Assembly (NCBI RefSeq): GCF_029266855.1
Contig: NZ_JAQSWB010000001.1
Location: 682,001 to 746,000 of the forward strand
Reading direction: 5' to 3'
Source: Fluviicola sp.
Lineage (GTDB): Bacteria; Bacteroidota; Bacteroidia; Flavobacteriales_D; Crocinitomicaceae
Length of the DNA: 64,000 bases
The notes under the pieces: generated by a model
Databases searched by the model: none
Seen by the model: the letters and a program-made list of their open reading frames with translations, nothing else
Told to the model about the DNA's origin: nothing
Translations under genes and position numbers: made by a program
Shown here: piece after piece, positions 5,204-50,828 of the stretch
How the letters are laid out: the number at the start of each line of letters is the position of its first letter
Numbering within the stretch: position 1 is the first letter of the stretch

Positions 5204-5330
5204 GCTACGATGAAGTATAGATGAAGTATAGATGAACCATGATTGAAGCATAGATATAGCATAGATATAGCGACGTTTGTATATGTTTTTAACATCCGAT
5301 AGATATATTTAACTGCTCGATCCGGAACTT
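5204..5330 (+). repeat. 11-bp-register repeat array, copy A
   Basis: Seven consecutive 11-mers run in exact register from 5204 to 5280: gctacgatgaa, gtatagatgaa twice, ccatgattgaa, gcatagatata twice, and the terminal gcgacgtttgt. The block ATATG-TTTTTAACA then follows, and ATTTAACTGCT-CG with AATTGAT (5307-5337) is shared with copy B. The terminal unit contains GACGTTTG, close to the -7 consensus TAnnTTTG, and points toward mnmA 230 bases away. Three relatives occur at 28.2, 49.1 and 50.8 kb. The rest of 5094-5508 has no gene I can support. Confidence 0.8.
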
Positions 5331-27997: not shown

Positions 27998-28167
27998 GAC
28001 TTGCTCATTTTAATGGCCTTTTAAAGCGATCAAATGTAAATTAAAAACTGCTTAATTGAATTGCAGCGAAATGAATTCTTTCAACAAGTTACTAAGAGTA
28101 ATTACGAGCACAGGGTACTGGGAGGCGACTCAAAAATTAAATCAGGCAATAACAAAGCTGGAAACAA

Positions 28168-28275
28168 GTATAGTTAAAGCATATATCTAGCATAGTTAAA
28201 GCATAGATGAAGCATAGATATAGTTACGTTTGTATAGTTATTTAACAATAAGGATGTACATTTAACTGCTTCGCA
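28168..28275 (+). repeat. 11-bp-register repeat array, copy B
   Basis: Five 11-mers (gtatagttaaa, gcatatatcta, gcatagttaaa, gcatagatgaa, gcatagatata) and the terminal unit gttacgtttgt (28223-28233) run without a break. ATAGTTATTTAACA and then ACATTTAACTGCT follow. TACGTTTG is a full match to the -7 consensus. The orientation points into the 3' end of the gene at 28281-28775, so any transcript would be antisense to it. Confidence 0.8.
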
Positions 28276-28280
28276 ATTGA

Positions 28281-28775
28281 TCAAGCTTCCCCATTCAAAG
28301 ACCTGATCCGTCCCAAAATATCTTCCATCGAATAAGCTGCTATCCCCCGGTATCCTTCCGGTAAATTCAAACCGCTTACACTGAGCATCAATCCTTCTGA
28401 TTCCAGGTAAATCAACAGATCTGCCAGTTGATTTATCCAACCGGCCAATTGCATAACCTCACTGATGGGTTTCAGACAGGTGAGTTCTCCGTTTGCCCGG
28501 TCATACTTTGAAAATACAGTTTCCGGTTCCAAACAAATCATTGTTTGTGGGATCTCCACCAAAACAAGTGGAATTGCGGCTCTTTTTGCTTTCCTCAGCA
28601 TAGAAGCACTTAACAAGTGTTCTGATTTACGGTATGTAAGACTGTAATAGTCTTTGCCTGATGAAATTCCGATATGCGGAGGAATCTTATCTGCATTCCA
28701 GATCCAGATAAACGTTTTTTGAAGCACTTGTTCCGGAAGTTCCCGGCTGATTGATTGAAAGTCAAATTTGGACAT
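28281..28775 (-). CDS. Conserved-looking protein of unknown function
   Basis: 164 residues, soluble by prediction, without signal peptide. It starts MSKFDFQSISRELPEQVLQK and contains TFIWIWNADKIPPHIGISSG and LRKAKRAAIPLVLVEIPQTM. A Leu-rich helix (MQLAGWINQLADLLIYLESE) and a final acidic helix follow. I do not recognise it. Its start overlaps the dapF stop by 14 bases, so it is translationally coupled to dapF. The stop lies right beside repeat array B. Confidence 0.65.
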   Translation of the reverse strand: MSKFDFQSISRELPEQVLQKTFIWIWNADKIPPHIGISSGKDYYSLTYRKSEHLLSASMLRKAKRAAIPLVLVEIPQTMICLEPETVFSKYDRANGELTCLKPISEVMQLAGWINQLADLLIYLESEGLMLSVSGLNLPEGYRGIAAYSMEDILGRIRSLNGEA

Positions 28776-49032: not shown

Positions 49033-49106
49033 TCGTTTGTTAAATTTCATTACAAAAGTCGCTCTATCTACGCTCTATAGTCGCTCTATCCACACGCTAT
49101 CTATTC
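49033..49106 (-). repeat. 11-bp-register repeat array, copy C
   Basis: On the minus strand, 11-mers gtgtggataga, gcgactataga, gcgtagataga and the terminal gcgacttttgt (49052-49062) run in register. AATGAAATTTAACAAACGA then follows, the same block as in copies A and B. It lies in the 372-bp gap between two genes and points away from the PLP decarboxylase, toward the DUF4421-like gene end. The remaining gap sequence holds hairpins but no gene. Confidence 0.75.
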
Positions 49107-49314
49107 TTTACCTAGTTTAAGCAGGATTATATAATTATTCCAAAGTTATTCATTTTACATTTCTGAGAAGTTTTCAGATACCAAGGCCTCTGATGTATCG
49201 GGAGAGGTTTCAAGATTAAATTTTCTTCAAATAGATGGAGGACTAATGTGGAAATGAAGTAAAATCGCCACTAAATCCTTCACACTCGCATACTATATAT
49301 TTCCTTTGGCTTTT

Positions 49315-49359
49315 CCGTCTTGTGAGACGGAGCCTCAGTCTTCGTCAGCTATCGCTGAC
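49315..49359. terminator. Two small hairpins at the end of the PLP decarboxylase gene
   Basis: CCGTCT-TGTG-AGACGG just past the stop and GTCAGC-TATC-GCTGAC across the stop codon are both perfect 6-bp stems. No T-run follows on the minus strand, so termination is possible but unproven. Confidence 0.4.
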
Positions 49360-50578
49360 TCTTATCCAGCTCCGTTAGGAAAACCTCTAATTTTTCAACC
49401 GTAACGTGCTGCATCACTACAATTTTGAACCAGGAAGGTTTAGTGTGATCATCCGGGACCAAACCAAATTGACTCGCTAAGGCGGGTGAAATCTGGTATG
49501 CATTTATTGTAATGATATTCGATAAGGGTGCACGGAAATACTGAATTCCGCGTTTATTGAGTTGTTTAGCCAGCCAGGACGTTCGCTGCTCCAAAATCGA
49601 GCACTTCTCAAACCATTCATGTCTGCCATAAGCTGCGAAAATTAACCAAACCGCTATGGCGTTGGCGCCCGATCGGCTTCCTGATATCGTACAATCCGCA
49701 CCTACAACATACGAAGCTGCATCTGTTTGTGCGTACTTCATCCAATCCTTCCGAATGAGGAAAATTCCTGTTCCGTAGGGTGCCTGAAGCATTTTATGTG
49801 CATCCATTGTAAAGGAATTCACTTCCGGATGCAGGAAATTAATCCGGTTGTTATCATCAACGATCGGAGCATAAAAACCACCGTAAGCCGCATCAATGTG
49901 TATTTTAAACTGAAATCCGTGGTTCTTCATTAACCCGGCATAAACATCCACATCATCGATCGAACCAAACATGGTTGTCATCATATTACTCACAACAACA
50001 CTATATTTTACCCCACCCTCTTTCAGAGCAAGCAGTTTTTCATTTGCCTTCTGCAGATCAATTTTGCGGGTTTCTTGATCTACCGGCAGCAAGACACAAT
50101 GCACATTGAACATATCTCCGGCTTTTTGCATACTATAGTGACTGTCTTCGCTGCATACCACTGCAATTTCGGATAGATCCGCCTGGTGCATCTGCATAAA
50201 ATAGTTCCGATAGATCCATACGGCCTGTAAATTTGCTTCTGTTCCCCCGGTGGCCATATATCCATCAATACTGTTCGGTTCTGCGCATAAAATATTTTCG
50301 GCACAAATACGTATTACTTCGCGTTCCAAGACATGTGTTCCTTCAAAGTAAGATTCGGAATTACCCAGGGTATGGCAACCGATATGATTCGGATTTTGAA
50401 CCAAGGTAGAAAGATAGGGTGCTTCACGAACAAAACTGATCTCTGCCGAAAAGACTTTCGGATCCAGGTAAGTTCCAGGAATTCCCAGCACAGACCCACT
50501 CCTGTAATCCACATTGTTCTTTAAGGCATCAAAAACACGTTGCCTGGCTTCACTTTCCGATTTTCGTTTCCACTCCAT
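49349..50578 (-). CDS. PLP-dependent amino-acid decarboxylase (group II)
   Basis: 409 residues from the ATG at 50578 (MEWKRKSESEARQRVFDALK); the in-frame TTG at 50596 would overlap the -7-like AAACTTTG and is rejected. PLP motifs: GNSESYFEGTHVLEREVI, ATGGTEANLQAVWIYRNYF, FKIHIDAAYGGFYAPIV (Asp contacting the pyridine N) and SFTMDAHKMLQAPYGTG (Schiff-base Lys). It resembles glutamate/tyrosine/aromatic decarboxylases; the substrate cannot be fixed. The gene is flanked by two copies of the 11-bp repeat array. Confidence 0.87.
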   Translation of the reverse strand: MEWKRKSESEARQRVFDALKNNVDYRSGSVLGIPGTYLDPKVFSAEISFVREAPYLSTLVQNPNHIGCHTLGNSESYFEGTHVLEREVIRICAENILCAEPNSIDGYMATGGTEANLQAVWIYRNYFMQMHQADLSEIAVVCSEDSHYSMQKAGDMFNVHCVLLPVDQETRKIDLQKANEKLLALKEGGVKYSVVVSNMMTTMFGSIDDVDVYAGLMKNHGFQFKIHIDAAYGGFYAPIVDDNNRINFLHPEVNSFTMDAHKMLQAPYGTGIFLIRKDWMKYAQTDAASYVVGADCTISGSRSGANAIAVWLIFAAYGRHEWFEKCSILEQRTSWLAKQLNKRGIQYFRAPLSNIITINAYQISPALASQFGLVPDDHTKPSWFKIVVMQHVTVEKLEVFLTELDKSQR

Positions 50579-50726: not shown

Positions 50727-50800
50727 CGGAAATGTTCGAGTGTTAAAAATTAGTACAAATATCGAGATAAGTACTGGATAGATACGAAATAAATACGGAG
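50727..50800 (-). repeat. 11-bp-register repeat array, copy D
   Basis: On the minus strand, 11-mers ccgtatttatt, tcgtatctatc, cagtacttatc and the terminal tcgatatttgt run in register, then ACTAATTTTTAACACTCGA, which keeps the TTAACA block. It is the most diverged copy. It lies about 150-220 bases before the PLP decarboxylase start and points to it. GATATTTG is near the -7 consensus, so this could be its promoter. The rest of 50597-50828 shows no gene. Confidence 0.65.
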
Positions 50801-50828
50801 TAAAATGGTTTGGAATTATTCCGAAGGA

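Follow-up and report, generated by a model that had tools for sequence, protein, structure and literature searches.

Mobile elements that encode a small HTH protein, with tandem repeats one turn of the DNA apart as its binding sites, are of a known kind. RDF proteins assemble head to tail on direct repeats approximately one DNA turn apart, single sites being bound weakly and neighbouring sites cooperatively; the proteins bend DNA and control promoters besides acting in excision, and their operators are also found between phage promoters (PMC7498355). A second paper describes head-to-tail filaments for both RdfS and BldC, together with repression by RdfS of its own promoter (PMC11963761). The arrays described here resemble the operators of lambda Xis, P2 Cox, 186 Apl and RdfS in comprising several tandem direct repeats 10 to 11 bp apart (PMC7498355; PMC11963761). 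In relatives, such arrays also appear to lie in the control region upstream of a small HTH-like gene, one that the window copies do not have in their vicinity, and some of these loci include a tyrosine-integrase-like gene. Furthermore, opposed promoters flank 186 Apl and P2-type sites, much as arrays in relatives lie between two divergent genes that we term H and A. The arrays differ from the excisionase/RDF operators in that dozens of gene-less copies occur in a single genome, with a fixed tail block and with units homogenised array by array; H, unlike the excisionase/RDF proteins, has no recognised family.

BldC of Streptomyces, a MerR-like filament protein, offers a further likeness in its variable-length stretch, its several targets and its one protomer per turn, an occupancy that our arrays would share; a consensus is described as not strictly needed by BldC (PMC11963761), whereas an 11-bp consensus is plain in the arrays here and their source is putatively mobile. 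The TAACTGA repeats of Beggiatoaceae, Cyanobacteria and some Bacteroidetes likewise form many short intergenic direct-repeat sets whose binder is not known; they are built on a fixed heptamer, lie in the main genome mostly before start codons and are thought to act post-transcriptionally, whereas the present arrays have an 11-bp, variable unit and mixed orientation (PMC4679880). The genome paper of Fluviicola taffensis reports one CRISPR entry (PMC3236050). A preliminary description of the DNA studied here had recognised no named element of this form; repeats in helical register do have precedents among the operators of excisionase-like winged-helix proteins, and no published description of the dispersed orphan arrays, the tail, H or A was found in the literature searched.

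The parC site of plasmid R1 consists of 11-bp direct repeats bound by the small oligomeric protein ParR; the repeats form two groups of five on either side of a single promoter, and the plasmid carries ParM. Readings of our repeats as LytTR, PhoB-type or parC sites were considered and dropped, as was a likeness of the tail to the consensus of integron attC or Xer dif.

Four 11-bp arrays in the window

The window is a 64-kb stretch of a Fluviicola genome, analysed over its whole length. In a period scan covering all lags between 6 and 24, with 55 comparisons per place and the six best places taken per lag, the four highest-scoring places at lag 11 were copies A, B, C and D, with 41, 36, 34 and 30 matches respectively, in accordance with the preliminary description, which had placed four 11-bp arrays at these positions. 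The only other score of at least 33 among the six best places per lag was 38 at lag 22, within copy B. Because the maximum in 100 order-3 Markov simulations was 33 (mean 28.4), period on its own sets copies A, B and C above chance but not copy D; the expected 11-bp autocorrelation is thus borne out for the first three against simulated sequence, while D, at 30, falls within the simulated range. Copy D is assigned through its sequence, not its period. Model R1 gave 58.4, 41.9, 47.1 and 33.2 bits for A to D (E 2.9e-17 to 2.1e-9), having been built from 41 sequences that include all four window copies, D among them. Beyond A to D, the sole R1 match in the window under E 0.1 was a second one in array B.

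The window arrays contain three or more tandem units one DNA turn apart, in D only in degenerate form, and TTTGTA-N7-TTAACA was found in all four, as the previously proposed common TTTGTA/TTAACA end block had implied. An RNA element was rejected: no Rfam family matched the window at gathering scores and the predicted fold of array A was nothing unusual (z 0.79). ARAGORN found no tRNA in the window.

Table 1. Array copies and an adjacent hairpin module in the window (position 1 is the first base of the window).
Feature	Positions	Strand	Type or sequence	Basis or context
Copy A repeats	5209..5275	+	11-bp direct repeats, GATGAAGTATA / GATATAGCATA type, F1	lag-11 score; R1 58.4 bits
Copy A tail	5276..5316	+	TTTGTATATGTTTTTAACA (5276-5294), 8-nt stretch, ATATATTTAACTGC (5303-5316)	
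Copy B repeats	28165..28228	+	11-bp direct repeats, F1	lag-11 score; orthologous gap of 5 relatives without array
Copy B tail	28229..28269	+	TTTGTATAGTTATTTAACA, 10-nt stretch, ACATTTAACTGC	faces 3' end of ORF 28281-28775(-)
Copy C tail	49038..49056	-	TTTGTAATGAAATTTAACA	sits between 3' ends of two convergent ORFs
Copy C repeats	49057..49103	-	11-bp direct repeats, GATAGAGCGAC type, F2	lag-11 score and R1
REP-like hairpin module, upstream of copy C	49308..49343	-		exact match, 0 expected in shuffles
Copy D tail	50741..50759	-	TTTGTACTAATTTTTAACA	
Copy D repeats	50760..50803	-	degenerate 11-bp, TTATTTCGTAT / CTATCCAGTAC / TTATCTCGATA	R1; orthologous gap of 4 relatives without array

A dispersed array family

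A blastn search with copy A against its own genome (G000; 4.3 Mb, 14 contigs) returned 42 places at E ≤ 10 and 32 at E ≤ 1e-3, counts that include copy A itself and in which at least two arrays are counted twice. The block TTTGTA-N7-TTAACA occurs 25 times in this genome, compared with four for the reversed control. Pooled over 13 other genomes of the genus, the figures were 35 and 30, with an excess in G129 (8:1) and G080 (6:2); therefore, outside G000 the block by itself tells little in the genus.

Forty-one copies were trimmed to 71 bases and aligned. These had been picked by a regular expression demanding TGTA and AACA with a spacing tolerance of one base either way, and by at least 14 of 33 lag-11 matches; because of this selection pattern and the equal-length cut, it is largely by construction that the alignment has no gaps and that TGTA and AACA do not vary. 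At E ≤ 0.1, the sequence-only model of the 41 copies matched 72 places in G000, 47 in G080 and 29 in nine other genomes of the genus (1 to 5 each), and nothing in three of the 14 genus genomes; some arrays match twice, and the 41 training sequences match by construction. A profile search of the genome and its relatives thus reveals abundant further copies, and what had been described as a family of four numbers dozens.

Among 200 genomes of the family, eight score E ≤ 1e-4 with the array model, within two of 24 genera. When 399 genomes of the order were scanned with a pattern of two tandem units, 15 matched, every one of them from the window's family, with 0 everywhere for the reversed control. 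Scanning 84,980 species for the block, a set that may omit the window's own records, gave 21 loci, nine with upstream 11-mers by eye and twelve without; the nine belong to three records, an uncultured Fluviicola and the Flavobacteriales MAGs UBA5869 and UBA7666. The block scan of viral contigs produced two matches, neither with an array.

The units fall into the types F1 (ATANAGCATAG), F2 (ATTACCCGACT / ATAGAGCGACT) and F3 (ATATCCCATAG). Across 21 arrays of the own genome with a recognised tail, adjacent units in one array were more alike than units of different arrays (identity 0.79 vs 0.73; reached in 0 of 2000 permutations). Against a consensus built from units -2 to -4, unit -2 has an identity of 0.94, which declines with distance to 0.30-0.37 for units -10 to -12. 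Together with the wholesale replacement of units at sites common to G080 (see below), the within-array identity upholds the earlier proposal that the arrays evolve in concert. The F1 tail carries two TTAAC motifs, in direct orientation, flanking a variable stretch. The operator of the B12 light sensor CarH/CarA, an 11-bp repeat of the form nnnnTnnACAn (PMC9304148), was rejected by motif, TnnACA being present in 0 of 41 repeat parts on the array strand and two of 41 on the other.

Presence and absence at orthologous sites

Comparison of the flanks of 42 loci in the own genome with those of 33 loci in G080 gave 11 pairs with common neighbours. Ten G000/G080 pairs were read: in eight, gap and orientation of the array agree, in one the orientation is reversed and in one the array occupies a different gap. 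At some of the eight sites the units differ wholesale, and at the copy A site GATGAAGTATA-type units in the own genome stand against units of ATAGATATCCC in G080, where the orthologous gap also holds an array. By eye, the copy A array is present in G080 and missing in ten other relatives with a visible gap (a comparison that leaves out L078, whose stretch did not cover the gap), and G059 and G129 each have one array site in common with G000.

Seven further sites of the own genome, B and D included, were compared with up to five relatives. All 29 usable orthologous regions were without an array (30 were read, one being masked), and the best lag-11 score in the relatives was 19 of 33, compared with 21-33 in the own copies; at one of these sites, L004, the upstream gene differs in G080. 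Since the relatives examined have no array at these seven sites and the eight G080 pairs are occupied, most tested copies are likely lineage gains and some are older; the sequences compared make gain, not loss, the likely direction at the seven sites. The empty regions at the seven sites, and those of ten relatives at copy A, favour the mobile, non-coding element suggested for G000 in the preliminary description. Target duplication, a sharp left end and terminal inverted repeats or palindromes were not seen by eye at the array sites.

Other sequences were observed in the gaps of relatives. The copy A gap of G129 and G059 (L072, L076) contains a tandem 9-mer, TTCAATAGT, in many copies in G059, with TTTGAAC-type sequence farther on. 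At L325, L312, L317 and L219, relatives have short GC-rich palindromes (e.g. GTAGGGGCGGAAAATTTTCCGCCCCTAC) where G000 has an array.

Arrays at the divergent genes H and A

In the contexts of the two-unit pattern matches, the last unit of the array often provides the ATG of a small ORF, H, encoding an unannotated HTH-like protein of 62-66 aa (consensus KRxVIYPKDIMxITGKSERYxRxL...HQxITIxEFxxYxGLD). H directly follows the array, and an unannotated protein of ~249 aa, A, is encoded divergently. The array lies between divergent H and A in other genera, in G059 of the Fluviicola group and, outside the order, on a plasmid of Marivirga. Sixteen longer stretches were analysed, four from G059 chosen for H and twelve chosen for the array; H and A occur together in 13 of the 16, and in nine of the twelve. 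As module partners, S (67-89 aa) is present in eleven cases, T (58-67 aa) in six and U in five. At L276-L287, L291 and L340, S is hydrophobic and T membrane-like, and a fourth small protein with RPRFKAGAELS is encoded.

As judged by clustering, a tyrosine-integrase-like gene (419-439 aa) lies within about 1 kb of H at four of the 13 loci; three of the four proteins were checked by Pfam and contain Phage_integrase, Arm-DNA-bind_5 and SAM_5. Downstream at L279, a locus of G059, there are genes for an integrase-like protein and a type I methylase. On tblastn against 72,556 plasmids, A and H each matched one record, in both cases plasmid p1 of Marivirga sp. BKB1-2 (NZ_CP129969.1, Cytophagales), with identities of 41% and 52% respectively. 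The genes are divergent there in the order A(-)/array/H(+), with ATGGATAAAGT-ATAGATAAAGT-ATG ahead of H; stops break up the A region, and the plasmid has an annotated integrase of 169 aa.

For A, S, T and U, each represented by one or two members, searches of Pfam, PHROG and NCBIfam gave nothing significant, and A had no convincing match in the PDB. H gave nothing above curated cut-offs: its weak excisionase matches (PHROG 575, E 6.8e-4, two of 13 members; HTH_17, E 0.065; TIGR01764, E 0.049) are equalled by unrelated families (RsfS, E 0.0045; UvrD, 0.009), and its best PDB matches were a designed repeat (E 0.0013) and histone H3. One of the 14 genus genomes has a close match to H (G059, four copies), G070, G010 and G080 have divergent relatives with no array visible upstream, and the remaining ten, G000 included, gave no match at E ≤ 0.01. 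G051 has H at L285 as well as arrays at L289 and L290 whose analysed stretches contain neither H nor A. Neither A nor H was found in viral contigs (peptide-pattern scans) or phage records.

At least two units in 11-bp register lie within 150 bp upstream of 11 of 14 H genes (0 in 2000 shuffles), a proportion that overstates the linkage because nine of the 14 loci came through the array pattern and five by protein search; the 14 are also non-independent, with four from G059 and near-identical pairs. TAnnTTTG occurs within the same 150 bp at ten of the 14 (shuffled mean 1.1, maximum 6), always upstream of the units and never inside them. By the strict two-unit test, L279 and Marivirga pass among the five protein-found loci and L276, L277 and L278 have one unit each; by lag-11 score, three of the four H loci of G059 are significant.

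Protein search for A gave 18 genes in six of the 14 genus genomes. The 11-bp periodicity upstream is significant at 11 of these and not at seven (500 shuffles each), and lag 11 tops six other lags tried at ten of the 18. These protein-sought genes and the Marivirga layout are the least biased evidence for the link between array and module, which is found in two orders. Two of the three A genes of G000 have significant arrays, of types F2 (C11) and F1 (C6), without H. As both arrays end in a TTTGT..TTAACA-type tail like the window copies, the latter are tied to the control region of the module.

Discussion

We consider it reasonably probable that the arrays are operators of a small mobile A/S/T/U-H module and that the window copies are orphans without H. 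Judged from sequence, the window arrays look like stray switch copies of an undescribed mobile gene cluster, with H as the candidate switch protein. The home site would be a divergent control region with A, S, T and U on one side and H on the other, and with a tyrosine integrase near in some loci. H would be an excisionase/BldC-like HTH protein that assembles head to tail on the 11-bp direct repeats, with one protomer per helical turn along a single face of the DNA in a putative filament mode; a filled array would then keep H silent and might do so for the A operon on the opposite side as well. Autorepression of H fits, because the array sits between the TAnnTTTG promoter element and the H start codon. 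The array is most likely an operator to which an oligomer of H would bind, and the position of the relatives' arrays, where a small HTH-like gene begins, lends indirect support to the protein-binding part of the preliminary description.

In the window's lineage, copies of the control region would have lost H, and mostly A too, would carry the 19-nt block TTTGTA-N7-TTAACA where H would start, and would have spread as orphan arrays through intergenic DNA by some route of copying. Homogenisation of the units within an array probably reflects tandem duplication. The orphans of G000 could be unbound leftovers, targets of a different protein or sequences mobilised in trans. There is a modest chance that they constitute an operator-only mobile element, whose 11-bp arrays and tail are copied in trans by the owner module or a relative, and which serve as decoys or solo attachment sites and outlive the regulator.

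The preliminary description had offered a mobile promoter as one of two readings and had the terminal unit fit the -7 consensus TAnnTTTG. Only nine of 41 terminal units do so, and the neighbours of 42 copies (54 loci minus 11 without a recognised tail and L099 without an array) are mixed: 19 divergent, 11 along transcription, six against it and six convergent. A strict promoter is not supported by these two results; the tails of 12 of the 42 copies, B and C among them, face the 3' end of a gene. A mobile promoter, with the array as an activator platform and the tail as a core promoter, would suit the nine fitting units and the gene start ahead of 30 of the 42 tails, but is quite improbable given the 32 units that do not fit, the 12 tails directed at 3' ends, a co-directional split of just 11 to 6 and the position of TAnnTTTG upstream of the units at the ten of 14 H loci having one. 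It is also rather doubtful that the orphan arrays make up a working regulon of conserved sites at which H or a substitute regulates neighbours or folds the nucleoid. Retention of the array in the same gap and orientation by eight of ten G000/G080 pairs speaks for such a regulon, as does the presence in G051 of both H and arrays without H or A; against this, H was not found in G000 at E ≤ 0.01, the neighbours are mixed as above, units have been replaced wholesale at some sites common to G080, and seven of seven probed sites are arrayless in the relatives examined.

The repeats of 186 Apl, spaced by 10-11 bp, are in use at att and at promoters (PMC7498355), which would agree with an attachment site in which excisionase-type repeats adjoin an integrase core, TTTGTA-N7-TTAACA-N8-10-TATTTAAC, and orphans are solo sites. 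The tyrosine-integrase-like gene near H at four of 13 loci, its domains confirmed for three, and the two TTAAC motifs about the variable stretch of the F1 tail point the same way. We nevertheless regard an attachment site as unlikely: recombinase half-sites are usually inverted, whereas the two TTAAC motifs are direct, and a search of the 13 H loci and of the Marivirga plasmid revealed no TTTGTA-N7-TTAACA. Plain minisatellites, growing by slippage with no binding protein, would account for homogenised units, varying copy number, polar decay and the failure to find H in G000; they are very improbable, as like 11-bp units precede H in two orders and no other period is prominent in the window.

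Under the preferred reading, that of operators of a mobile module, H and A represent two unannotated protein families with a proposed operator that is directly footprintable. If H binds the array, the Bacteroidota gain an excisionase-like regulator family, here in two orders, and the orphans would document how an operator spreads in nature once separated from its gene; comparison of sister species could then trace the turnover of units, the growth of arrays beside the tail and the changes at common sites.

Other intergenic repeats

Several repeat families seem to be interspersed, mosaic-like, in the intergenic DNA of G000. The region of the REP-like module in the window (49290-49395) has a fold z of -3.9, and the module comprises two strong hairpins, GTCAGC..GCTGAC and GGCTCCGTCT..AGACGGAAAAGCC. 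It recurs intergenically, often past GATA (L236, L006, L014), and at L236 a similar module lies within an 11-bp array. Past the tails at L006, L007, L011, L014 and L024 there is a recurrent block, GGCGCGAGGCTCTGGCTCGTGCC, with variants, and there are runs such as TTCGTAATTCGGCATTCG. On contig C1 of G000, TTTGTAAACCTTTTAGTTAACA occurs five times in 4 kb (982446-986096; L041-L045), apparently unrelated to the arrays.
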